A stretch of DNA of 30,881 bases from positions 1 to 30,881 of the IMG/VR virus record IMGVR_UViG_3300046002_003351; one strand, given 5' to 3'. Numbering within the stretch: position 1 is the first letter of the stretch; every line of letters begins with the position of its first letter. The stretch is from a virus. The position numbers and the translations under genes are program-made. This document shows, one piece after another, positions 3,834 to 22,978 of the stretch. The notes beneath the pieces are model-generated. The model saw nothing but the letters and a program-made list of their open reading frames with translations, did not search any database and was not told the DNA's origin.

Positions 3834-4043
3834 ATGGCACTAAACCCAGCATTATTAACAGCAGATATTTTAGCGGACAACGCAATTGTTTCCCCTATTC
3901 CAGCAGATGCATTACCTCAATTTACAATATTCATTACTCAATTATCTATTCACATTACAGAACAAATTAAAAGAGGAAGTGTAAATGATGTGACTGTCAA
4001 TACTAGTACTGGAGTTCAGAATAATGTTGCTATGGTAGAGTAA
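3834..4043 (+). CDS. Small protein following the spike gene, function unknown
   Basis: A 69-residue protein starting 1 base after the spike stop, in a TAAAATG context, so it is translated with the baseplate genes. The sequence is a hydrophobic/polar helix pair (LLTADILADNAIVSP, then LPQFTIFITQLSIHITEQIKRG) ending in a threonine/asparagine-rich tail. There is no recognisable domain, signal peptide or clear membrane segment. Small alanine-rich proteins often occupy this place after the spike in phages of Bacteroidetes, and may be minor baseplate or chaperone-type proteins. That is positional inference only. The gene's last 14 bases overlap, tail to tail, the end of the glycosyltransferase gene on the other strand. 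Confidence 0.7.
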   Translation: MALNPALLTADILADNAIVSPIPADALPQFTIFITQLSIHITEQIKRGSVNDVTVNTSTGVQNNVAMVE

Positions 4044-4755
4044 TCAATTTCATATCATAATCTTTGATATAAAATCCATCAACATCATTTGCGCTAAGTA
4101 ACATTACAGCTTTATAGTCAAGTAACAACTGGCTAATTTCAATATTACATCTTGCAGTTGAGTTTCTAATTTTCCTTTCAATGTCATCTCTTACCCAGCT
4201 ATAATGATGCATTGAACCACTTTGTAATAAAGAGACATTGTTACTATTTATTTTTCGTGTAGGGTCAACATAAAATGGATACTGCCTACCTCCAGCTACA
4301 GTATCAGTATTTAACTTATGAATAAATGGAACGTAATAATTGTCAAATTTATCAAAGCAATAATTAGCTTTTCCAAAGTAAGTATTTATTTTGCATACAG
4401 AGCCATCATAACCACTATCAATAAACTCTTTTTTTAGCTCTTTAAAATTTGGATAAACTTCATCGCAATCTAAGTGCAAAAAATGAGTGCATCCTAATTT
4501 TAAAGCAATTTGTATTCCTATATTCCTTTTACTTTTTTCATTAAACGCTGGTGATGAATTAAGCTGAGGCTCATATAAAAATGTAACATCGTGCTTTATT
4601 TTTTGCAACTCAGAAAGTGGGTCATATTTTTCTCCATAGTTAGAAACATCTTGATAAACAAATATGATGTAATCAACATCATTTCTTATTGAATTCACAG
4701 ATGATTCTAAATGCTCAACGCCATCCCAAATATTATATATTGCTGCTAATTTCAT
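4030..4755 (-). CDS. Glycosyltransferase, GT-A fold (family 2-like)
   Basis: A 241-residue protein and the last gene of the minus-strand glycan island. The N-terminus (KLAAIYNIWDGVEHLESSVNSI) is the nucleotide-binding start of a GT-A protein. HFLHLDCDEVYP (92-102) holds the DxD motif (D96, D98) that binds the metal and the sugar-nucleotide diphosphate. A later segment, MHHYSWVRDDIERKIRNSTA (~182-201), recurs in a group of bacterial family-2-like transferases. There is no membrane segment, so it is cytosolic. It is linked to the upstream FkbM gene by a TAATG overlap and ends inside the opposite-strand small gene. Sugar and acceptor are not inferable. Confidence 0.78.
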   Translation of the reverse strand: MKLAAIYNIWDGVEHLESSVNSIRNDVDYIIFVYQDVSNYGEKYDPLSELQKIKHDVTFLYEPQLNSSPAFNEKSKRNIGIQIALKLGCTHFLHLDCDEVYPNFKELKKEFIDSGYDGSVCKINTYFGKANYCFDKFDNYYVPFIHKLNTDTVAGGRQYPFYVDPTRKINSNNVSLLQSGSMHHYSWVRDDIERKIRNSTARCNIEISQLLLDYKAVMLLSANDVDGFYIKDYDMKLITLP

Positions 4756-5363
4756 TATCTACCAATAAGTAAATTCTCAATGTTTTCATAAATAACATTT
4801 TGCATTCCAAAGCTTGATGTGTATTTTAATATTTCAATTTTATTTTGTTCATTACCATTCCATTCAATGCAAATCAATTTTGTACCTAGTAAATTAATCT
4901 GCTTTAAAATTTCAATATCCATTCCCTCCGCATCAATGGTTATAAAATCAAATGATTGATAACCAGCAAATGTTTTATAGTTCAACATTGATACATTTAC
5001 TGGATTAAATTTTACACCTGATTTTTTCCATTTGGCAGTTTCATTCTCAATTAATGAACTAACCAAAGCAATATCATTGCCTCCTCTAACGTGCGCTCCT
5101 GATTCGTGCAAAGTAATAGTGCCATTACTATTCCCTATTGCAATGTTAACGCAATGAACAAGCTTATTGCCTTTATGTAATAATTGTAATTTTGCAAAAG
5201 CATCAGGAGATGGTTCAACCAAAGTAGCTGACCATCCTAATTCAATTAATTTTAAAGCATTTGAGAATGTTTTGCCATCGTTTTCTCCTATGGATAGTAA
5301 AGAGCCAATAAATCCATTGAAATGCTTTACTATGAAATCTTCTTCATTATTTTGTGAGTACAT
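4755..5363 (-). CDS. FkbM-family SAM-dependent methyltransferase
   Basis: A 202-residue protein with the FkbM layout. It has a glycine-rich SAM-binding loop LLSIGENDG (22-30), the acidic motif VEPSP (49-53) that positions the ribose, and the family signature FDFITIDAEGMDIEILK (138-154). Family members O-methylate sugars or small molecules, often within glycan pathways. Here it lies between two glycosyltransferase genes, 1 base after the upstream one and overlapping the downstream one by 1 base. It therefore probably caps or decorates the sugar chain made by the island. The start is ATG at 5363. The N-terminus (MYSQNNEEDFIVKHFNG) is typical of FkbM proteins (SQ..ED..I...F), supporting that start. 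Confidence 0.88.
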   Translation of the reverse strand: MYSQNNEEDFIVKHFNGFIGSLLSIGENDGKTFSNALKLIELGWSATLVEPSPDAFAKLQLLHKGNKLVHCVNIAIGNSNGTITLHESGAHVRGGNDIALVSSLIENETAKWKKSGVKFNPVNVSMLNYKTFAGYQSFDFITIDAEGMDIEILKQINLLGTKLICIEWNGNEQNKIEILKYTSSFGMQNVIYENIENLLIGR

Positions 5364-5364
5364 T

Positions 5365-5994
5365 TTATTCTGTTATTGTGTTAGTAATTAGGTCGGCCTC
5401 CGAGTGTTTTCCGTGATTGTATTGAAATAATATTTTATCAGTATGGGCCTCAGTTGTGCAATGTGTTAAAACTTTTTCAAACCAAATATAGTCCTCAGCA
5501 TTGTTTATATCATCAAATTCATATAGTGATGCAAATTCTCTGCGAACTGGACAGATATGCCAAGGGGGTCTTCTCATTGTATATTCAGGAGAAAATTGGT
5601 CATTTTCTTTATAAAACAAACGCATATCAACCAATCCCCAAGCACTATCTAATTTTATAATTGAACGGAAGGTGCATACATCTAAATCAAAGTTACACAA
5701 GCGCAGCAAAGTTTCCGTATAATTAGGAGCAATGCTTTCATCATCATCCAAGAAACATAAGTACTTGCCATTTGCCTTGGAGACTAATGACTGCCTTTTT
5801 TTTCCTATGCTCAAACCGCCATCTAAAAATGATGGACTATCATCTACAACTACCTCAACTATTCCAAGCGTTTCGTGTTCACTAACCTGATTTATTTGCG
5901 CATTTAAAATTGCCAAAAGTCTATCAAGTTTATGTTTTCTTTTGGGAATTGATGGGATTAAAATTGAAAGGATAGTATTTCCAGTATTATTCAT
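5365..5994 (-). CDS. Family 2-like glycosyltransferase
   Basis: A 209-residue GT-A glycosyltransferase. It starts with the Rossmann-like TILSILIPSIPKRKHKLDRLLAIL and has VVVDDSP (48-54). The metal-binding DxD-type motif is in YLCFLDDDESIAPNY (78-92). A late acidic motif, NNAEDYIWFEKV (~164-175), corresponds to the usual ED catalytic-base region of family 2. It is shorter than stand-alone family 2 enzymes (~250-330 residues) and has no membrane anchor. The closest relative inside the window is the transferase at 7259-7819, with the same overall layout, suggesting an old duplication. The start overlaps the TylF gene by 8 bases. Confidence 0.85.
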   Translation of the reverse strand: MNNTGNTILSILIPSIPKRKHKLDRLLAILNAQINQVSEHETLGIVEVVVDDSPSFLDGGLSIGKKRQSLVSKANGKYLCFLDDDESIAPNYTETLLRLCNFDLDVCTFRSIIKLDSAWGLVDMRLFYKENDQFSPEYTMRRPPWHICPVRREFASLYEFDDINNAEDYIWFEKVLTHCTTEAHTDKILFQYNHGKHSEADLITNTITE

Positions 5995-6634
5995 TTATGA
6001 AATAGCAGATATTAGAAATTGATTTATAATTTGGGGTAAAGTTTATTGATTTAAAATAATCAACACAAGCTAATTGACACCCTTGCAATTGCCAGTCATC
6101 TATAATCACAATGCCGCCTTTTATCACCTTTGGAAACAAGTGTTGCAAACAAACTAAAGTTGAGTTATACAAGTCACCATCTAACCTAAGGATAGATATT
6201 TTATCAATCTTATTTTCTTGCAATGTATTTTCAAACCATCCTTTATAAACTTTAATATTTTCAATGTTTTTTACCTTAGAAATATTGGTCATAAAAGCAT
6301 CTAATGGCACAACAGTTGCCCCACTACTTACAAGCTCCTGATGACCAAAGTCAGGCAATTTATTCTGTTCTGATTTTGTAAAGTACTGAATCCCAGGCAT
6401 TTGGTCATCTTTATTGGATGGAAGTGGTATGCCCTCAAATGAATCAAATGCGTGTATTATTTTATCAGGTGCGCCCTCTGCCATTGCAATCATTTGCGCT
6501 CCAGCTGCTACTCCGCATTCCACATAGTCTCCATCAGCATCTTTCATTTTTTTTGCGCATTCATAACTAAACATTAAAGTCTCTTCAGATGAATAGGCAA
6601 TTTGCTTTGCAAATTTTAAGTTGTTAGTCTCCAT
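5987..6634 (-). CDS. TylF/MycF-family O-methyltransferase
   Basis: A 215-residue protein with the full set of TylF-type signatures: the SAM-binding loop GDYVECGVAAGAQ (35-47), FDSFEGIPLP (63-72), LRLDGDLYNST (149-159) and IIDDW (177-181). The two aspartates in LDGD and IIDD are the metal and catalytic positions of this family. Members such as TylF and MycF methylate hydroxyls of deoxysugars on macrolides, and relatives are common in polysaccharide and capsule clusters. It overlaps its upstream neighbour (a glycosyltransferase) by 11 bases and its downstream neighbour by 8, so all three are translationally coupled. It is probably a sugar O-methyltransferase; the exact acceptor is unknown. Confidence 0.9.
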   Translation of the reverse strand: METNNLKFAKQIAYSSEETLMFSYECAKKMKDADGDYVECGVAAGAQMIAMAEGAPDKIIHAFDSFEGIPLPSNKDDQMPGIQYFTKSEQNKLPDFGHQELVSSGATVVPLDAFMTNISKVKNIENIKVYKGWFENTLQENKIDKISILRLDGDLYNSTLVCLQHLFPKVIKGGIVIIDDWQLQGCQLACVDYFKSINFTPNYKSISNICYFINE

Positions 6635-7262
6635 ATTGGATATAAGTATTTGTGTTTAAATGTATTTTTGCGGCAATAAATCCGTAGTCTAATATATCAA
6701 TTTTATGCTTGTGAAATATTACAGAGTTTACACTTTGGTCGTGCCTTGCAGCAACAAAGCCATCTCTTGTAGATGTCCCATTATTAAATGAACCAATTAA
6801 AGATTGATAAAATATTTGACCAAGAATAATTTTAGGCAATTCCTTTTCAAAATTAAAACCTAAAGCTCCTCCCCAAGTATTTTTTACATCATTAATATAA
6901 TTAGCACATTCAAGATTATTAACAGCTAAATCAGTAATATATTTATACGTTGGATGTCCAATATTATCAAATGCTACAATGCCATCCTTGGCTTGGTCAA
7001 GCAATTCAAAAGGATTTTTTATTAAACGCATTGTGCTATCAAGCCAAAAAACTTTTTTATAGCCAACATTAAAAGCTTTGATTAGTAAATCATATTTAAA
7101 CTTGTATGGTATATCTTCCTGAGGTGTGACACCATTTGGATATTCGTTTAAAATCCAAGTGTCACAATCCCCAGCTATATGCAGAGTCTCAATTAGCTTT
7201 TTTTGTTTTTCAATGTAGTTGTCACGCCCATTTATAGCGAGAGAGATAATAAGTGGTTTCAT
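6624..7262 (-). CDS. Glycosyltransferase-like protein with WLDS motif
   Basis: A 212-residue protein that looks like a GT-A-fold transferase but outside family 2. It has an N-terminal strand KPLIISLAINGRDNYIEKQKKLIETL, then FKYDLLIKAFNVGYKKVFWLDSTMRLIKNP (~55-84) with a WLDS in the DxD position, and ARHDQSVNSVIFHK (~172-185), which resembles the 'DQ' motif of family 8/galactosyl-type transferases. There is only one acidic residue in the DxD site (D75, then S76 T77), so metal binding may differ from the neighbours. It is coupled to the upstream gene by a 4-base ATGA overlap. It could also be a sugar-nucleotide-binding protein without transfer activity. Confidence 0.68.
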   Translation of the reverse strand: MKPLIISLAINGRDNYIEKQKKLIETLHIAGDCDTWILNEYPNGVTPQEDIPYKFKYDLLIKAFNVGYKKVFWLDSTMRLIKNPFELLDQAKDGIVAFDNIGHPTYKYITDLAVNNLECANYINDVKNTWGGALGFNFEKELPKIILGQIFYQSLIGSFNNGTSTRDGFVAARHDQSVNSVIFHKHKIDILDYGFIAAKIHLNTNTYIQYGD

Positions 7263-7819
7263 TTGTATTCTTTATTTTTTGATAAGTAAACGTAATGATA
7301 CATCGGCAATGCAATAGTATATTCTGTCTTTAAAAAAACATTCACGGCATCAGAGTAAGCTTTATCCTCAGCATTAGATTTATGTGGGAATGGTGCTTTA
7401 ATTGCGTGTTCCCTCTTTACCGCAGTAATATGGTTGGTTTTTCTTAAATAAATATTTTTACCATTTTCTGTTATAGTTATATTTGGATTATCCTTGGATA
7501 GTCTCCAAGCAATTTCATCTTTCCCATCAGTAGTCATAATTCCATTTATTGCTATGCAGTCCATATCAGATAAACAAGCTTTCAACATTTCTTGAATATA
7601 ATAATTAGGCACAACATCATCATCATCAATAAATACAATGTACTTCCCTTTTGCTTGAGCAACAAGTTCATTTCTTTTTTGTCCAGTTGACTTTTCTTTT
7701 TTGTCAATGTTTATAAGAATTTCAACATCATTGGTTAGTTGTGAATCTAAATTTTGCAGCAAGGATGCTAATTTTTCTTTTCGTGAAAATAAGGAGCAGA
7801 TTAAAATACTTAAAATCAT
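7259..7819 (-). CDS. Family 2-like glycosyltransferase (short)
   Basis: A 186-residue GT-A glycosyltransferase. It begins ILSILICSLFSRKEKLASLLQNL, continues with EILINIDKKEKSTGQKRNELVAQAKGKYIVFIDDDDVVPNYYIQEML (~33-79) and carries the metal-binding run IDDDD (64-68). It ends with a KSNAEDKAYSDAV segment (~147-159) that holds the acidic ED catalytic region. The layout, including the G(K/Q)KR.(E/S)LV...A.GKY spacing, closely parallels the gene at 5365-5994. It is compact with no anchoring helix. It overlaps both neighbours by 4 bases (ATGA-type), as expected for a coupled operon. Donor and acceptor sugars cannot be deduced. Confidence 0.85.
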   Translation of the reverse strand: MILSILICSLFSRKEKLASLLQNLDSQLTNDVEILINIDKKEKSTGQKRNELVAQAKGKYIVFIDDDDVVPNYYIQEMLKACLSDMDCIAINGIMTTDGKDEIAWRLSKDNPNITITENGKNIYLRKTNHITAVKREHAIKAPFPHKSNAEDKAYSDAVNVFLKTEYTIALPMYHYVYLSKNKEYK

Positions 7820-8466
7820 AAGGGGAAATTTAAAGATTTATGTTTTGCAAATAGTTCTTTTCCTTGATTCCAATTGTCCGCACTTCTCTTGTATGTATCA
7901 TCATTTTCAGCAAGGCCATTGCAAGGGTGTTCGTGAGGAAATTTTAATTCAGGAGCAAACGATAGCCATTTATTATTATTGGTTATATGATATAAATGTT
8001 CATCAACAAACATTGATTTATATTCAGGATGCCAAAAGTACCCAAGTTTTTTATAAAGGTGAACATTCATAATTGGGATTGTCAAGACCGCAACATTAAA
8101 TTTTTGCAGAAGGTCATCAACTTTTATCAATAATGGTGAATTAATCCCTTGAAATTTTTCTATAATTAATTTGTCCCAATGCATCGGACATTTAAAGTCA
8201 TCTGATAAATAAACAAGTATGCTGCCTTTTGATTGCTTTGCAGCCACATTAGTCGCATCAACAACACTTGTGTTATCTGACACTATAATAATTGACTGTG
8301 AGCTTTTAAATGCATCTATGTACGCAGACATTTCTTTATCATCAGAATCTATTGATACTATATGCTCAATATTTTCTTTATTAGCGGCCAATGCCATCCA
8401 GTAGCAATAAGTTTTATATGACTTTGCGGCCCTACCTCTTGATGGGTGAATCAATGTTATATTCAT
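7816..8466 (-). CDS. Glycosyltransferase-like protein (GT-A fold)
   Basis: A 216-residue protein from the ATG at 8466. That ATG overlaps the stop of the SEC-C gene in a TAATG junction, which fixes the start; a longer frame from 8535 would run through that gene. It begins NITLIHPSRGRAAKSYKTYCYWMALA, then HIVSIDSDDKEM (~35-46), NVAAKQSKGSILVYLSDDFKCP (~73-94) and SMFVDEHLYHITNNNKW. The YLSDD (86-90) is in the DxD position, and FVDEH may be the catalytic acidic region. Similar proteins are annotated as phage or bacterial glycosyltransferases of family 2 type. It is cytosolic, with no membrane segment. The call is by fold pattern. Confidence 0.75.
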   Translation of the reverse strand: MNITLIHPSRGRAAKSYKTYCYWMALAANKENIEHIVSIDSDDKEMSAYIDAFKSSQSIIIVSDNTSVVDATNVAAKQSKGSILVYLSDDFKCPMHWDKLIIEKFQGINSPLLIKVDDLLQKFNVAVLTIPIMNVHLYKKLGYFWHPEYKSMFVDEHLYHITNNNKWLSFAPELKFPHEHPCNGLAENDDTYKRSADNWNQGKELFAKHKSLNFPL

Positions 8467-8627
8467 TACTTGCAATAATTGGCCCACTGGCATAGGCATT
8501 TTTTTATTTTTTCTCCTGAGCCACAATGTCTGCAAATTTCATTGCGACCTTGTTTTGGCATTAGAACAATTGGCCCACCAGTTTTAGACCTAAGCACTGT
8601 TACTTTTCTTGGTTCGTGATTTGCCAT
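8466..8627 (-). CDS. SEC-C zinc-motif mini-protein
   Basis: A 53-residue protein read on the minus strand. Its ATG (8627) lies 3 bases after the stop of the upstream transferase and its TAA forms a TAATG junction with the next gene, so it is inside the coupled operon. The core QGRNEICRHCGSGEKIKKC (26-44) clearly matches the SEC-C zinc motif (consensus GRN.PCPCGSGKKYKKCC) found at the C-terminus of SecA and in many accessory proteins. Cysteines 32, 35, 44 and 46 (and H34) could bind one zinc, with one extra residue in the first pair compared with the usual C-x-C. The N-terminal ~25 residues are basic (KVTVLRSKTGGPIVLMPK). SEC-C domains bind proteins such as SecB or ribosome-linked partners, so an adaptor role is conceivable but not shown. 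Confidence 0.8.
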   Translation of the reverse strand: MANHEPRKVTVLRSKTGGPIVLMPKQGRNEICRHCGSGEKIKKCLCQWANYCK

Positions 8628-8630
8628 ATT

Positions 8631-9329
8631 TTATTTGTTTTTAAACTGTTTATAAAATTCAAAACTTTCAGCATCAGTATTGGCGTATAGAAAAACATCC
8701 CCAATATCTTCTACCCCACTAGCAGATTCATTGCCTAAACCACCATCCATTTGATATCTGTTTAGTCTATCCTTATGATGCCTACCGCCACATAAGCCTA
8801 CTCCGTGCTTAATTCCTATTGAAATGATTTTGCTTGGTGTCCAAGTTTTTTTTGAGCCATTTAAAACGTGCGAGTGTAGCCATAAGTGCAAGTCAGTATA
8901 TACCTCATTATCATTGGGCCAAGAAATGTTTAGATTAGGTTTTATCATTGTGTTCATCGCACTTGCTCTCTCAGGGTGATTCATCATAAAATATGACCTG
9001 AGACCAACGTGATAGTAATATGTATATGAAGTGCCAAATAAATCAGGCTTACCATTATCAATCCAAGCGGCCAACATTTCTTCAATGTATGTTGGTGAAT
9101 AGTAATCATCATTTTCAATTAGAAATATTACATCAAAATTATCATATTTTGAAACCCATTCATAACCTCTTCTATAGCGTTGTGTAATGTCGGGTTTTTC
9201 AGATTCAGCTGGGTTATTTACCAAAAGCACATAATGAATTTGCGCAGTTTGTTTTTTCAGCATTTTTTGGCATTGCTCAAGAAATTGCGGCCTATCTGAG
9301 CGGTCAGGAATAATGCAAGCTATTTTCAT
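8631..9329 (-). CDS. Glycosyltransferase, GT-A fold (first gene of the island)
   Basis: A 232-residue protein from the ATG at 9329. The frame extends up to 9356, but that TTG lies inside the promoter. It starts KIACIIPDRSDRPQFLEQCQKML, typical of a family 2-like enzyme, with YVLLVNNPAESEKPDITQRYRRGYEWVS (~33-60) and the metal-binding motif FLIENDDYYSPTYIEEML (69-86). A later HSHVLNGSKKTWTPSKIISIGIKHGVGLCGGRHH region may form the acceptor or catalytic side. There is no membrane segment. It is the first gene behind the minus-strand promoter and is followed after 3 bases by the SEC-C gene. Confidence 0.8.
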   Translation of the reverse strand: MKIACIIPDRSDRPQFLEQCQKMLKKQTAQIHYVLLVNNPAESEKPDITQRYRRGYEWVSKYDNFDVIFLIENDDYYSPTYIEEMLAAWIDNGKPDLFGTSYTYYYHVGLRSYFMMNHPERASAMNTMIKPNLNISWPNDNEVYTDLHLWLHSHVLNGSKKTWTPSKIISIGIKHGVGLCGGRHHKDRLNRYQMDGGLGNESASGVEDIGDVFLYANTDAESFEFYKQFKNK

Positions 9330-9353
9330 TTTACTAAGTGGGTTTAGTTTTTG

Positions 9354-9381
9354 CAAATATATAAATTATATTGAAATGCAA
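9354..9381 (-). promoter_or_regulatory. Bacteroidetes-type promoter of the glycan island
   Basis: On the minus strand, TTG (9379-9381) and TATATTTG (9354-9361) are separated by 17 bases. This fits the Bacteroidetes sigma-factor pattern TTG-N17-23-TAnnTTTG. Transcription would begin near 9347, about 18 bases before the ATG at 9329. The same TATATTTGCAAAA string recurs upstream of the RHH gene at 11615-11622. Confidence 0.7.
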
Positions 9382-14230: not shown

Positions 14231-14524
14231 ATGGATTATATAGTAAAAGCTTTGACAGTATCAGGTTTATCAAAAAAAATACATCGTTCAGGAGATATAG
14301 TTAATGACAATGACTTCCCAGCTAACAGAGCAAAAGAGTTGGTCAATAGCGGTTTTTTAGTTGAGGTTGTAGAGAAAAATATTGATGGCCCAATTGGCAA
14401 GAATAAGATTGAAGTTGCTAGTAAGAATCAAGAGTTAATAGTTGAGGAAAAAACTGAGACAAATAACATTCTTGAAGAGATGGCAAACAAATCAAGCTCT
14501 AAAAAAGGTAACAGTAAAAAATAA
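14231..14524 (+). CDS. Small head protein after the capsid gene, function unknown
   Basis: A 97-residue protein. The N-terminal half (MDYIVKALTVSGLSKKIHRSGDIVNDNDFPANRAKELVNSGFLVEVV) is a short domain of the type 'g....G.iv.e.dFp...a.eLv..GflVe', common in phage small head proteins. The C-terminal half is a charged tail ending in KSSSKKGNSKK. It takes the place of lambda FI or a related packaging/completion protein, but sequence similarity to FI is not evident. The position between two hairpins suggests its expression level differs from that of the capsid. No enzyme motif is seen. Confidence 0.7.
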   Translation: MDYIVKALTVSGLSKKIHRSGDIVNDNDFPANRAKELVNSGFLVEVVEKNIDGPIGKNKIEVASKNQELIVEEKTETNNILEEMANKSSSKKGNSKK

Positions 14525-14543: not shown

Positions 14544-14579
14544 AAAAAGCGTTACTGGTTTTCATTAACGCTTTTTTTT
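14544..14579 (+). terminator. Intrinsic terminator
   Basis: A perfect 11-bp stem: AAAAAGCGTTA (14544-14554) pairs with TAACGCTTTTT (14566-14576), with an 11-base loop and a run of T (14572-14579). It is the strongest terminator-like structure in the window. It lies 20 bases after the previous stop and 12 bases before the next ATG, so it would reduce transcription of the completion and baseplate genes relative to the capsid gene. Confidence 0.85.
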
Positions 14580-19779: not shown

Positions 19780-20361
19780 TTATTTGAATACAGTTGTATA
19801 AGTAACAACCGCAGCAAATCCTATTGCAAGGCCAGTTAATATTTTGTTTCCTATTTTTGCTATCTTCAATTTCTTATCTGATTTTTGCAAATCCTTTTTT
19901 AAATCTATCTTAACAATTGAATCATTGTGAATAACCTCATTTCTATTTGCTATAATGCCACTTTGCAAGTCAATTAATGTATCTTTACCCAATTCACTAT
20001 TAACGTGCGCCAAAACTAACGTATCGCACTCACGGCTCATTGCCAGTAAATATGGCTGGCAAGTATCAGGAGCTTGTTTAATAATTATTTTTGTTCGGGA
20101 AATATAAATAGTATCTCTTTTCCTTGCCATTTGTTCAGCTCTTGCGGCTCTTAAACCTTGAGCTTGTGCCTCTGCTGACATCATTCCGTATTGTTTGGAT
20201 AGAATGCTGTTAGCCCATATCAAAGAATCATTAGTTGCTAACTGTGGGCGTTGTTTCTGACATCCTTGCATCCAAATTAATAGCAGCATTACAAGTGATG
20301 CAAATATTATAGCAAATGCAAATAGTTGATTTTTTTGAGTTGTTTCGTTAGTTTCAGGCAT
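19780..20361 (-). CDS. Two-anchor envelope protein, unimolecular-spanin candidate
   Basis: A 193-residue protein with two membrane anchors. An N-terminal hydrophobic segment, FAFAIIFASLVMLLLIWMQG (~14-33), is followed by Cys34, a lipobox-like position. A long polar, helix-prone middle has LRAARAEQMARKRD and DTLIDLQSGIIANRNEVIHNDSIVKIDLKKDLQKSDKKLK. A C-terminal hydrophobic segment, ILTGLAIGFAAVVTYTTVF, lies near the end. A lipid-anchored N-terminus plus an inner-membrane C-terminus is the u-spanin plan (phage T1 gp11), which fuses inner and outer membranes at lysis. If Cys34 is not lipidated, it would simply be a membrane protein with two spans. It is the last gene of the lysis operon. Confidence 0.6.
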   Translation of the reverse strand: MPETNETTQKNQLFAFAIIFASLVMLLLIWMQGCQKQRPQLATNDSLIWANSILSKQYGMMSAEAQAQGLRAARAEQMARKRDTIYISRTKIIIKQAPDTCQPYLLAMSRECDTLVLAHVNSELGKDTLIDLQSGIIANRNEVIHNDSIVKIDLKKDLQKSDKKLKIAKIGNKILTGLAIGFAAVVTYTTVFK

Positions 20362-20447: not shown

Positions 20448-20633
20448 TTATTTATTAGTTACTTTCCAGTCCAATTTCATTCTATCCCATTCACCTTTTG
20501 GATACTCAACTTCTTTTCCATTTTTTCTGAAGATGTAATGGTCTATGCGTAAGCCATACTTTATAGGTTCTATGCGCAGAAATGTCATTATTTCGTTGGT
20601 TTGTTCGTGGTGGAGGCGTGTTCCTTTTATCAT
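20448..20633 (-). CDS. Small hypothetical protein of the lysis operon
   Basis: A 61-residue protein from the ATG at 20633, which overlaps the endolysin stop by 4 bases (ATGA). An earlier TTG (20651) is less likely. It is basic and beta-prone: GTRLHHEQTNEIMTFLRIEPIKYGLRIDHYIFRKNGKEVEYPKGEW. No known domain, signal peptide or membrane span. It is co-translated with the endolysin, so it could tune lysis or bind the enzyme, but that is inference from position. Confidence 0.65.
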   Translation of the reverse strand: MIKGTRLHHEQTNEIMTFLRIEPIKYGLRIDHYIFRKNGKEVEYPKGEWDRMKLDWKVTNK

Positions 20634-21043
20634 TTGATTTTGTTTTTCCAATTGGTTAATTCAAAGTGAGGCATATCTTTGAAATTCTTAAAATTACCGC
20701 CCCAAGTAATATTTCCGTAAAGTGCAATAATTTTAGCAAACTCAGCAAAATATTTTGCTTTATAACTCAACTTTTTATTTTCCAAAAATGCGATATCAAA
20801 AGCTAATGAAGGATAATAATTATGTGGTGATTGCCCAGCTCTTGCATTGGTTATTTTAGGCCGCTTTTTAAAATAAACTTCTTGCATTGCATTGTTTCTG
20901 TATGTGCAAGTAAGAAATACATTTACGTTTCCGTATCGTTGATTAAATTCTTTTTCTGCCATTTCATAAGCTGCTATAATTCCAGTGCTTAAATCGTTCC
21001 TATCTCTGCTCTCAAATGGCTTGGTTTCATCTTTGGGTTTCAT
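20630..21043 (-). CDS. M15-type peptidase endolysin (VanY/L-Ala-D-Glu peptidase-like)
   Basis: A 137-residue zinc peptidase from the ATG at 21043, preceded by an A-rich stretch. The zinc ligands are H74 in GQSPHNYYPSLAFDIAF, D83 in the same segment, and H126 in DMPHFEL, the order HxxxxxxxxD...H of M15 enzymes. The Arg of the family's conserved T.R motif is R49 in TCTYRN, and TWGGNFKNF is typical too. It would cut the peptide stem of peptidoglycan during lysis. An ATG at 21124 would give 27 more residues (with CACYGS...CYC) but overlaps the previous gene by 23 bases. No signal peptide, so export depends on a holin. Confidence 0.85.
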   Translation of the reverse strand: MKPKDETKPFESRDRNDLSTGIIAAYEMAEKEFNQRYGNVNVFLTCTYRNNAMQEVYFKKRPKITNARAGQSPHNYYPSLAFDIAFLENKKLSYKAKYFAEFAKIIALYGNITWGGNFKNFKDMPHFELTNWKNKIK

Positions 21044-21101
21044 ATTGTTTTGATTATTGCAATAGCACTGGTGTATGTCAATTGAGCCATAACACGCACA
21101 A

Positions 21102-21293
21102 CTATTTGTTAAAGTTTTCTTCATAATACTCCTGAGCATTATACTCCTTGGGCATAATTGCCCTTGAATAGCCAACGTGGTAGGATTCTAAAATTTGATG
21201 TTTTTCTATTGCTTTCGCTAACTTTAACAATTTTTCATCAATAGCTATTTCATTTGCAAGCCAATCAACGGCACTTATTTGTTTTGTAGGCAT
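21102..21293 (-). CDS. Small helical protein, phage-typical
   Basis: A 63-residue protein: SAVDWLANEIAIDEKLLKLAKAIEKHQILESYHVGYSRAI, then KEYNAQEYYEENFNK. Short acidic/basic helical proteins with an N-terminal 'AV.WL' and a C-terminal 'YY.E.F' are frequent in phages of Bacteroidetes and have no assigned function. The start is ATG at 21293, 7 bases after the upstream gene's stop. It sits in the lysis operon immediately before the endolysin. Confidence 0.65.
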   Translation of the reverse strand: MPTKQISAVDWLANEIAIDEKLLKLAKAIEKHQILESYHVGYSRAIMPKEYNAQEYYEENFNK

Positions 21294-21300
21294 TTTACTG

Positions 21301-21774
21301 TTATGATATTTTTAAATTTCGTATGTCAACATTAAATTTAGTAGGCACATCATCAGGCCCATCAACCTCAGCATATGGGCGTAAAAGATATCCAATAGGA
21401 AAAGTTGCATTAAAACGTGGATAGTAAACATCGTGCGTTGGAAAGTTGATATTACTTGTATCATAAATCTCAATTGCAATCAAAGAGTTTAACCAATATA
21501 ATTTAGGGTGTATTTTAGTTCCAATTTTAAATTCTCCTATCATTTTTTCAATTCTCTCACTATTCACATAGGCGTACATCCATAATCTTACAAAGTCATC
21601 TCCTTGACTTCGATTATAACCCAACCTGATACTATTTCTATGGTGAAATCCTCTGCTAAATCCAACTATCTTTTGTATCCCTTGGCAAACTTGCCAGTTG
21701 CCTATAATAATATCACAAGTTAGTTCTGTTGGATTAATTAATAAACGTGGTAACATTTTACTATTATTACCCAT
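21301..21774 (-). CDS. Conserved-type hypothetical protein in the lysis operon
   Basis: A 157-residue protein. The ATG at 21774 follows a GGAGGAGG Shine-Dalgarno stretch and overlaps the upstream stop by 8 bases, so starts further up (21792, 21813) are rejected. The body is beta-rich, with FSRGFHHRNSIRLGYNRSQGDDFVRLWMYAYVNSERIEKMIGEFK (~40-85). The 'GFHH.NS.R.G......Y.YVN' pattern recalls a family of hypothetical proteins in Bacteroidetes chromosomes, by memory only. No catalytic motif, signal peptide or membrane span. Its role in the lysis operon is unknown. Confidence 0.65.
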   Translation of the reverse strand: MGNNSKMLPRLLINPTELTCDIIIGNWQVCQGIQKIVGFSRGFHHRNSIRLGYNRSQGDDFVRLWMYAYVNSERIEKMIGEFKIGTKIHPKLYWLNSLIAIEIYDTSNINFPTHDVYYPRFNATFPIGYLLRPYAEVDGPDDVPTKFNVDIRNLKIS

Positions 21775-21997
21775 AGCCTCCTCCTTTACCATTATTTTTT
21801 GCTTTTTTAGCAATCATCCATTGCTGCATAAAGCCAGCTCCACATACTGCACTAACAAGTGAGGCTGATAGTGCAATGGTAAAGGTTAACACTTCAGAGT
21901 TGTCAAAGAAAACTCCAGTCATAGCAAAGCCAACTGACCAAGAAGATAAAAATAATGATGCTGCTGCCCATAATATTAATGATAGTTTTGTTTTCAT
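21767..21997 (-). CDS. Small membrane protein heading the lysis operon
   Basis: A 76-residue protein with a signal-like or membrane segment LSLILWAAASLFLSSWSVGFAM (~5-26) and a second span FTIALSASLVSAVCGAGFM (~39-57), ending in a lysine- and glycine-rich tail (AKKAKNNGKGGGYG). Its TAA overlaps the next gene. It is the first gene behind the strong minus-strand promoter at 22022-22051. It is likely a membrane regulator of lysis or a further holin-type protein; no family recognised. Confidence 0.65.
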   Translation of the reverse strand: MKTKLSLILWAAASLFLSSWSVGFAMTGVFFDNSEVLTFTIALSASLVSAVCGAGFMQQWMIAKKAKNNGKGGGYG

Positions 21998-22021
21998 AGT
22001 ATTAATTATTGTTTATTTCTG

Positions 22022-22051
22022 CAAAGCTAAATAAAACATTTCTATACGCAA
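22022..22051 (-). promoter_or_regulatory. Promoter of the minus-strand lysis operon
   Basis: On the minus strand TTG (22049-22051) and TAGCTTTG (22022-22029) are 19 bases apart, a full match to TTG-N17-23-TAnnTTTG. It precedes the ATG at 21997 by 24 bases. Its -33 box overlaps the left arm of the 11-bp inverted repeat at 22050-22075. Confidence 0.72.
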
Positions 22052-22075
22052 ATTTTATTGTTAGCAATAAAATTT
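22050..22075. promoter_or_regulatory. Perfect 11-bp inverted repeat, candidate operator
   Basis: AAATTTTATTG (22050-22060), a 4-base spacer TTAG, and CAATAAAATTT (22065-22075) are exact inverted copies. The repeat touches the -33 box of the lysis promoter and the -33 box of a weaker plus-strand promoter. It is flanked by imperfect direct repeats starting TTTCTAT at 22039 and 22073. It could be a repressor operator or a small terminator hairpin; its place between divergent promoters favours an operator. Confidence 0.55.
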
Positions 22076-22084
22076 CTATCATTG
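22058..22084 (+). promoter_or_regulatory. Weak promoter candidate for the HTH gene cluster
   Basis: TTG (22058-22060) and TATCATTG (22077-22084) are 16 bases apart. The -7 part has one mismatch to TAnnTTTG and the spacing is short. It precedes the ATG at 22108 by 23 bases and overlaps the inverted repeat. A weak basal promoter that needs activation, or is normally repressed, fits this layout. Confidence 0.35.
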
Positions 22085-22107
22085 CAAAAATTTAAAAATC
22101 AAACCCA

Positions 22108-22359
22108 ATGAAACTACTTACAGAATTTAAACAACAATTTACTCTTAATGAGTGGATAAATGCTATGAAACAAGGCATCAAAGAACTATTTAATCAATGG
22201 TCATTTAGTGAGTTTGCGAAAGCTTTTTTTGCCTATATGCCAACGGCAACTGGTCAGCGAATTAAAGGAGGTTTTAAAACTATTAAAGGCGGCACATCTG
22301 ATGAAATTTTTACGGCATTAACTAAGTTGCAAAAGGAGGTTAAGGGTGAGCGCAATTAA
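22108..22359 (+). CDS. Small protein of the regulatory cluster, unknown
   Basis: An 83-residue, mostly helical protein (LLTEFKQQFTLNEWINAMKQGIKELFNQWSFSEFAKAFFAYM, then RIKGGFKTIKGGTSDEIFTALTKLQKEVKGERN). It has basic patches and aromatic residues but no known motif. It is the first plus-strand gene after the divergent control region, and its end overlaps the next, HTH-like gene by 14 bases. Adjacent placement suggests a regulatory or early function, which remains a guess. Confidence 0.6.
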   Translation: MKLLTEFKQQFTLNEWINAMKQGIKELFNQWSFSEFAKAFFAYMPTATGQRIKGGFKTIKGGTSDEIFTALTKLQKEVKGERN

Positions 22360-22651
22360 AGAGATTAATGAACTAAATATGATATTGGTTACAGAGTGGA
22401 ATGGAGGGATGCAATCGAAAGAAATATGCAAAACATACAATGTACCATCTTGGCGTTTAAAAAATGCAATAAAAGAATATTTTACAACACGCACGGCATT
22501 AATACTAAAAATTAAAGCAGAATCAGAAATACCTGATATTGAGCCAAAGATATTAGACATAGAAAATGTAATTTGTGCATCATTTGCTAATTTAACAGTA
22601 GGTGATGTTCTTTTCAATAATGGCAAAATAAAAGCATTAAAATTTAATTAA
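22346..22651 (+). CDS. Helix-turn-helix-like DNA-binding protein
   Basis: A 101-residue protein with a GTG start at 22346, clearly set by the Shine-Dalgarno AAGGAGG (22333-22339); this is one of the few genes here with such a site. Residues ~16-45 (VTEWNGGMQSKEICKTYNVPSWRLKNAIKEYF) form a helix-turn-helix of the 'm...eIak.y.vp...l...i' type seen in terminase small subunits and in transposase-like or phage regulators. The C-terminal half is predicted beta/helix without a recognised fold. It could be a regulator of the divergent promoters or a terminase small-subunit-like protein; context favours regulation. Confidence 0.55.
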   Translation: MSAIKEINELNMILVTEWNGGMQSKEICKTYNVPSWRLKNAIKEYFTTRTALILKIKAESEIPDIEPKILDIENVICASFANLTVGDVLFNNGKIKALKFN

Positions 22652-22665
22652 TTATAATTTAAAAA

Positions 22666-22920
22666 ATGAACATAACACAAGAGCAACCCAAAAAACAACC
22701 TAGCATTGAGAATTTAGAAAAAATGCACAAAGAATTATTAAAATTGGTGGTACACAGAGGCTCTAGGCCATCTAAATGCAATCCAATTAATGATGCTGCC
22801 AAAAAATTTGGCTACACTAGACAAGGCATTTCTCGAATTTTATATGGAAAAGTTAAGGATTGGAAGCCACATCATTACGAAATTTACAACTTTCTTAAAT
22901 TCTATTTGTCTGATAATTAG
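22666..22920 (+). CDS. HTH DNA-binding protein, small
   Basis: An 84-residue protein. After a polar N-terminus, residues ~40-65 (INDAAKKFGYTRQGISRILYGKVKDW) form a helix-turn-helix of the XRE-like kind (a 'aA.k.G.tr..is.il.G' pattern), then HHYEIYNFLKFYL as a final helix. Such small proteins act as Cro/CI-like regulators of early phage genes. It lies just upstream of the strong promoter at 22949-22978 that drives the replication genes, a good place for a regulator. Its true target and partners are unknown. Confidence 0.62.
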   Translation: MNITQEQPKKQPSIENLEKMHKELLKLVVHRGSRPSKCNPINDAAKKFGYTRQGISRILYGKVKDWKPHHYEIYNFLKFYLSDN

Positions 22921-22948
22921 TATTTTAAATAATTTGTGTGAAATAATA

Positions 22949-22978
22949 TTGCGGGGTAAATATTTATAGTTAGATTTG
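22949..22978 (+). promoter_or_regulatory. Promoter of the replication/recombination operon
   Basis: TTG (22949-22951) and TAGATTTG (22971-22978) are 19 bases apart, a full match to the Bacteroidetes pattern, and lie 25 bases before the ATG at 23004. It fits the main early promoter for the genes to 28060. Confidence 0.72.

Follow-up and report, generated by a model that had tools for sequence, protein, structure and literature searches.

Between the divergent lysis and early genes of this virus lies a perfect inverted repeat, and the question is whether it serves as an operator and, if so, for which protein. The window, i.e., the whole stretch of DNA analyzed here, is the entire virus record of 30,881 bases. 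Genes for structural proteins, including a lambda-type portal, a Clp-type protease, and capsid protein E, are located on the plus strand; amid them, positions 4030-9356 hold a minus-strand block of genes judged by eye to be glycosyltransferase/methyltransferase-like. The lysis operon is encoded on the minus strand and runs leftwards from 21997, and the early genes run rightwards from 22108, towards genes for a helicase and DnaB. The two gene sets are separated by 110 bases, within which the inverted repeat is found. Relatives of the major capsid protein occur in 102 phage records, 79 of them named Flavobacterium and 7 Cellulophaga; since these are mostly Flavobacterium phages, the host is probably a flavobacterium. 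Among named phages, we found neither similar DNA nor a relative of the first lysis protein or of the early regulator described below. No integrase was detected among the 20 window proteins scanned, and the window has no Rfam match.

The first gene of the lysis operon (21767-21997) encodes a hydrophobic protein of 76 aa, which was used as the query for finding relatives. It is followed by a conserved second gene for a 170-aa protein of unknown function (21301-21813; 41% to the relative L070) and by a gene for an M15 peptidase endolysin (20630-21175), which matches PF13539 with 38 bits (cut-off 25) as well as endolysin PHROGs. A 193-aa protein with an N-terminal hydrophobic segment, also encoded on the minus strand (19780-20361), is spanin-like by position only and has no family match in Pfam or PHROGs. 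On the plus strand, the early operon starts with a gene for an 83-aa protein (22108-22359), whose C-terminal half is similar to the KGG protein of relatives, followed by genes for a putative helix-turn-helix (HTH) protein of 101 aa at the position of HTH1 (22346-22651) and for an 84-aa HTH protein, HTH2 (22666-22920), which we propose as the cognate regulator of the repeat. A preliminary description of this DNA had already suggested a divergent control region here, and this part holds: genes of an M15 endolysin lysis operon lie on one side and early, regulatory genes on the other, an arrangement conserved in relatives.

Promoters of Bacteroidota carry a -33 box. By its sequence, the lysis promoter has the -33 box TTTG (22049-22052, minus strand) and the -7 box TAGCTTTG (22022-22029, minus strand), which lies 24 nt before the ATG at 21997; read as TTTG-N19-TAGCTTTG, it has the make-up of a Bacteroidota sigma-A promoter, i.e., TAnnTTTG preceded, at a distance of about 19 nt, by a -33 box of the TTG type. 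For Flavobacterium sigma-A, the available text of PMC9723704 gives TAnnTTTG as the -7 consensus; this text does not mention divergent phage promoters, nor does it contain the words 'spacer' and 'divergent'. The -7 box of the early promoter, TATCATTG (22077-22084, plus strand), lies 23 nt before the ATG at 22108 and has one mismatch to TAnnTTTG; its weak -33 box TTTA (22054-22057, plus strand) was placed by the 19-nt spacing and falls inside the repeat. Most relatives have TTTG or TTTA at this place and mostly TAGGTTTG at the early promoter. The stretch between both -7 boxes (22030-22076) is 47 bp long, a length kept in relatives. Judged by these elements, the region is predicted to be a compact divergent promoter of the Bacteroidota type, with back-to-back -33/-7 promoters and 47 bp between the -7 boxes.

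The repeat at 22050-22075 consists of the arms AAATTTTATTG (22050-22060) and CAATAAAATTT (22065-22075), 11 bp each and 100% complementary, around the 4-nt loop TTAG; with the inner T-A pair counted, it forms a palindrome of 26 bp in which 12 of 13 positions pair. Its candidate half-sites are TTTTATTGTTA (plus strand) and TTTTATTGCTA (minus strand). It begins in the lysis -33 box, overlapping three of the four bases of TTTG, and fills the early promoter from the -33 box to just before the -7 box. The perfect 11-bp repeat and its contact with both -33 boxes, as previously described, are thus confirmed. Arms that pair perfectly over 11 bp or more, with a loop no longer than 12, arose in 26 of 3000 dinucleotide shuffles of 21998-22107, a region of 21% G+C. 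Across 30 shuffles of the whole window, the mean was 0.37 repeats of this kind; the real window contains two. We regard the repeat as moderately, not overwhelmingly, unlikely by chance; this is suggestive, but the region was selected post hoc. The other perfect 11-bp inverted repeat of the window (14544-14576; AAAAAGCGTTA / TAACGCTTTTT, 11-nt loop) sits just past a gene end at 14524 and resembles a two-way terminator.

The whole record has no second copy of the repeat with up to 3 mismatches, and single arms with at most 1 mismatch were observed 9 times versus 7.1 expected. Among viral_contigs, the exact repeat core was found in 15 stretches, none of them carrying genes of this phage family. 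The direct repeats TTTCTAT, which had been described as flanking elements, do exist at 22039 and 22073; since a direct repeat of at least 7 arises in 1806 of 2000 shuffles, they are uninformative, attributable to chance, and carry no weight.

To find related loci, we used the 76-aa protein, which led to 67 viral loci, and the 22666 product, which added 3. Of these 70 loci, 64 carry the promoter pair CAAANNTA-N46/47-TANNTTTG, in 30 distinct units, with a distance between the -7 boxes of 47 bp in 58 loci and 46 bp in 6. Neither spacing was found in the remaining 6 loci, one of which, L005, has the pair apart from a single mismatch in its -7 box on the lysis side (seen in L227, from the same contig). 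Other spacings are less frequent, e.g., 36 bp in 16 loci and 70 bp in 15. Searches by pattern are uninformative about how frequent the module is: in genome_contigs the promoter pattern occurs in 74 stretches, 0 of them with a family gene, a count without control from which we draw nothing, and none of 98 pattern stretches in genome_contigs contains an HTH2 relative. In L006, L008, and L029, the 76-aa lysis gene follows a gene that by eye is recombinase-like and has its own TATATTTG promoter, without the divergent module.

Two relatives, L114 and L115, share the gene order of the window, i.e., lysis genes, divergent promoter, KGG, HTH1, HTH2, and next promoter, with one additional variable gene between the divergent promoter and KGG in L114. 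The KGG protein of relatives has 53-55 aa; residues 38-83 of the 83-aa window protein resemble it with 35% over 43 aa (E 5e-5, small set). Searching viral_contigs yielded no relatives of the 83-aa and 101-aa proteins, and within the fetched loci BLAST matched the 101-aa protein neither to HTH1 proteins of relatives nor to anything else. The structural model of the 101-aa protein is of low confidence (pLDDT 43) and unusable. The first early gene is highly variable among the otherwise similar phages L002-L068, which have unrelated small proteins and in one case a 464-aa protein at this position, a pattern resembling cassette exchange at the promoter. In L070, a gene of this variable set is found on the opposite side, and a 105-aa protein of the opposite operon (318-635) ends with NELLIMSEI, comparable to the LLIMSE ends of HTH1 in L114 and L115.

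The HTH2 protein is better characterized by its model (pLDDT 81), which has four helices with a helix-turn-helix at residues 40-59. A second-look aligner placed POU, XRE, and lambda repressor domains first, with modest Z scores of 5.5 to 4.8 (5.5 for POU, 5.2 for XRE, 5.0 for a lambda repressor fragment, and 4.2 for P22 c2). Foldseek gave no match below 1e-3, the fold matches having E above 1; a sequence profile compared with solved structures reached a best E of 0.085, which is not significant; and the Pfam family HTH_3 scored 18 bits, under its cut-off of 23, so that no Pfam cut-off was reached. The 22666 product is probably a lambda-repressor-like DNA-binding protein. According to their early spacers and HTH2 proteins, the relatives fall into three classes, A, B, and C, types that were defined after looking at the data. 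The window HTH2 is 60-61% identical to that of class A, 23-27% to class B, and 31-32% to class C, and the motif V-x-x-W-K-P-x-H is common to the HTH2 of the window and all three classes. In L022, L028, L036, L038, L055, and L065, the HTH2 frames have an 18-aa N-terminal extension, 100 aa in total, and an inner ATG may be the true start.

The preliminary description had named a lack of conservation of the arms in relatives as a finding that would speak against it. This lack is observed for the letters of the window repeat, which are not kept in relatives; what is kept is the position, i.e., the register in the early promoter spacer, and the letters change with the regulator. Class A relatives have TATTTTTAAAAATA in the same register as the window repeat, mostly with 7 pairs, a score that 4-18% of shuffles also attain. 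Class B spacers (TTTTAATAAAA or TTTTATTAAAA) and class C spacers (TTTATTTAAAA or a TTATATTAAAA-like form) have a symmetry that is weaker or centred elsewhere. The window repeat is the strongest palindrome of the compared spacers (0 of 300 shuffles), its perfect arms being peculiar to the window.

Evidence on the identity of the binder comes from the comparison of spacer type and regulator type. Of the 64 module loci, L003, L011, L069, L070, and L086, where both HTH genes are not in reach, were left out, giving 59; the window, L114, and L115 were excluded as well, the latter two being duplicates of contigs already included. The early spacer class equals the HTH2 class in 59 of 59 loci (34 A, 18 B, 7 C) and in 50 of 50 distinct ones. 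The type of HTH1 disagrees with the spacer in 4 loci of class A, which have a B-type HTH1, and fails to separate class A from C, as one HTH1 type is common to both. In previously unused contigs, all 6 with HTH2 in reach agree (8 examined). Among 51 loci with a class A HTH2, most of which are contigs already used, the module is present in 43, with a class A spacer in 42 and a variant of it in 1; the other 8 have no true module in the available upstream sequence. The types of the regulator and of its presumed operator thus match and are exchanged together, and because the spacer type matches the HTH2 type and both switch together, HTH2 is the candidate binder. We consider it probable, mainly on these sequence comparisons, that the repeat is a putative operator of HTH2, which would regulate its own early promoter within a fixed divergent promoter pair.

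The strongest competing explanation is a plain divergent promoter, whose A/T-rich core serves the promoters only, with a repeat produced by chance and with the spacer and HTH2 inherited in one recombining block. The 26 shuffles with arms of this kind and the absence of perfect arms from relatives are compatible with it, and HTH1, which lies in between, mostly switches along. Trees of neighbouring genes (the lysis genes, E_113, and E_96) speak for HTH2 as the binder: 13, 15, and 12 changes of the spacer class were counted on them, respectively, and the HTH2 class changes equally often. Only 6 switches fall on branches with good support. In the E_113 tree, such branches give 6 independent spacer/HTH2 pairs, and all 6 change in the same direction (sign test 0.031); in the lysis-gene and E_96 trees 3 of 3 pairs agree each, so that the value of 0.031 is reached by E_113 only. 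HTH1 co-switches on average in 2.7 of 3 (lysis genes), 4.6 of 6 (E_113), and 2.6 of 3 (E_96) of these pairs. Since most HTH1 genes, located between spacer and HTH2, co-switch, physical linkage may be a real part of the spacer-HTH2 match.

A recombining block does not account well for the distances, however. Calculated on distances, without the classes, the correlation with the early spacer is r = 0.79 for HTH2, whereas KGG and HTH1, both inside the supposed block, follow it far less (0.38 and 0.47). With HTH1 removed, HTH2 keeps a partial correlation of 0.72, a value reached by 0 of 2000 permutations, and E_96, a gene for 96 aa located beyond HTH2, shows no such relation to the spacer (r = 0.06). 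Eight further genes gave r between -0.05 and 0.23 (18 to 50 loci each). Taken together, we regard the plain promoter as unlikely. Between the early spacer and the lysis spacer of one module there is hardly any correlation (r = 0.13); recombination therefore seems active even inside the module, and crossovers seem to fall inside its AATTTT core.

The same correlations bear on the idea that the repeat is the operator of another protein, be it the product of 22346, a regulator of the host, or a phage protein that is not listed. In favour of this idea, HTH1, likewise a putative HTH protein encoded in this operon, correlates with the spacer at r = 0.47; against it, the partial correlation of HTH1 with the spacer given HTH2 is 0.04. 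We regard this reading as quite improbable. The preliminary description had named the products of 22346 and 22666 alike as possible binders; a DNA-binding protein of the early operon is indeed likely, and it is the 22666 product rather than the 22346 product that is favoured. That the repeat acts as a transcription terminator or RNA hairpin, a role also raised previously, is very improbable: its plus-strand form folds with -6.9 kcal/mol, but folding z scores are -1.4 and +0.25 on the two strands, the 11-bp stem has 1 G-C pair and is neither followed by a U run nor listed in the terminator scan, and, since the repeat is upstream of both -7 boxes, neither transcript would carry it. As an intrinsic terminator, defined by a G+C-rich stem and a T run, 22050-22075 was accordingly rejected.

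A further candidate for HTH2 binding lies behind its gene. The promoter that follows HTH2 (22948-22978, plus strand) is composed of the -33 box ATTG (22948-22951) and, after 19 nt, the -7 box TAGATTTG (22971-22978), and TAATATTGC (22944-22952, plus strand) is a weak, post hoc candidate for a third half-site over this -33 box. The class A half-sites are TTTTATTTTTA and TAATATTTTTA; in the two half-sites of the window repeat, TTTT of class A is changed to TTGY. Downstream of HTH2, where the following promoter has its -33 box, TAATATTTTGA of some class A loci (L069, L086, L022) corresponds to TAATATTGCGG in the window, i.e., TTTTGA is changed to TTGCGG. The same change from TT to GC/GT at three places fits one protein with a shifted specificity, a comparison made post hoc. 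A second HTH2 contact at 22944-22952 is possible for the window and class A only; a general second site is disfavoured because classes B and C have an identical promoter behind HTH2 despite their different HTH2 proteins. In the window, the half-site TWWTATTGY is not enriched (8 found versus 11.5 expected).

If HTH2 is the cognate regulator of the repeat, an HTH2 dimer would bind the palindrome and thereby cover the -33 box of the early promoter and almost all of its spacer. Bound in this way, it would repress its own early operon, i.e., exert negative autoregulation by which early transcription is turned off. Since three bases of the lysis -33 box lie within the repeat, the bound protein may also hinder or alter lysis transcription. 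The control switch between lysis and regulatory genes proposed in the preliminary description is upheld only as far as the divergent region and a probable regulator from the early operon are concerned; most of the site belongs to the early promoter, and the spacer on the lysis side shows little relation to the regulator type (r = 0.17 with HTH2).

A more far-reaching possibility, which we put forward tentatively, is that operator-regulator types (A, B, C, and that of the window) are exchangeable and mutually incompatible at one divergent promoter. They would be immunity groups in effect, setting the timing from early to lysis genes and possibly excluding relatives of the same type, in a Bacteroidota phage family without known lysogeny. 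Little is known about gene timing in Bacteroidota phages. We found no description of the module in the literature on promoters and repressors of Bacteroidota phages, in which subscription journals were thinly covered. One 47-bp module and one 84-aa protein are directly testable, with natural variation offering matched and mismatched pairs. If the repeat is the operator of HTH2, Flavobacteriia would gain a set of regulator-operator pairs from phages, and a regulator and its distant binding site would stay together while the genes between them change.

Lambdoid phages have immunity regions with cI/cro and operators between divergent promoters. By analogy, the module would act as a repressor-operator pair, with the lambdoid immunity regions and the repressor/stoperators of cluster A mycobacteriophages as its nearest counterparts. 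It would share with the lambdoid region (cI/cro; P22, 434) a small HTH protein of the early operon and a palindromic operator over the early promoter of a divergent pair, and in both, regulator and operator change type together. The two differ in that three operators are present there and one here, and in that the opposite promoter drives the repressor there and the lysis genes here. Like the bidirectional promoters of E. coli, as far as described in the available part of PMC12825309, one short region serves divergent transcription, and in both cases RNA polymerase bound in one direction may compete with binding in the opposite direction. Those promoters share one symmetric -10 element, whereas here two separate -7 boxes lie 47 bp apart with back-to-back -33 boxes, so that a promoter with a shared element was rejected for this locus. 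The -7 box TAnnTTTG is common to the module and the Flavobacterium sigma-A promoters in the text available from PMC9723704. In cluster A mycobacteriophages, according to the accessible sections of PMC6550527, there are 20 to 30 sites per genome, unlike the window with its non-enriched half-site, and repressor and stoperator sequences diverge together across related phages.
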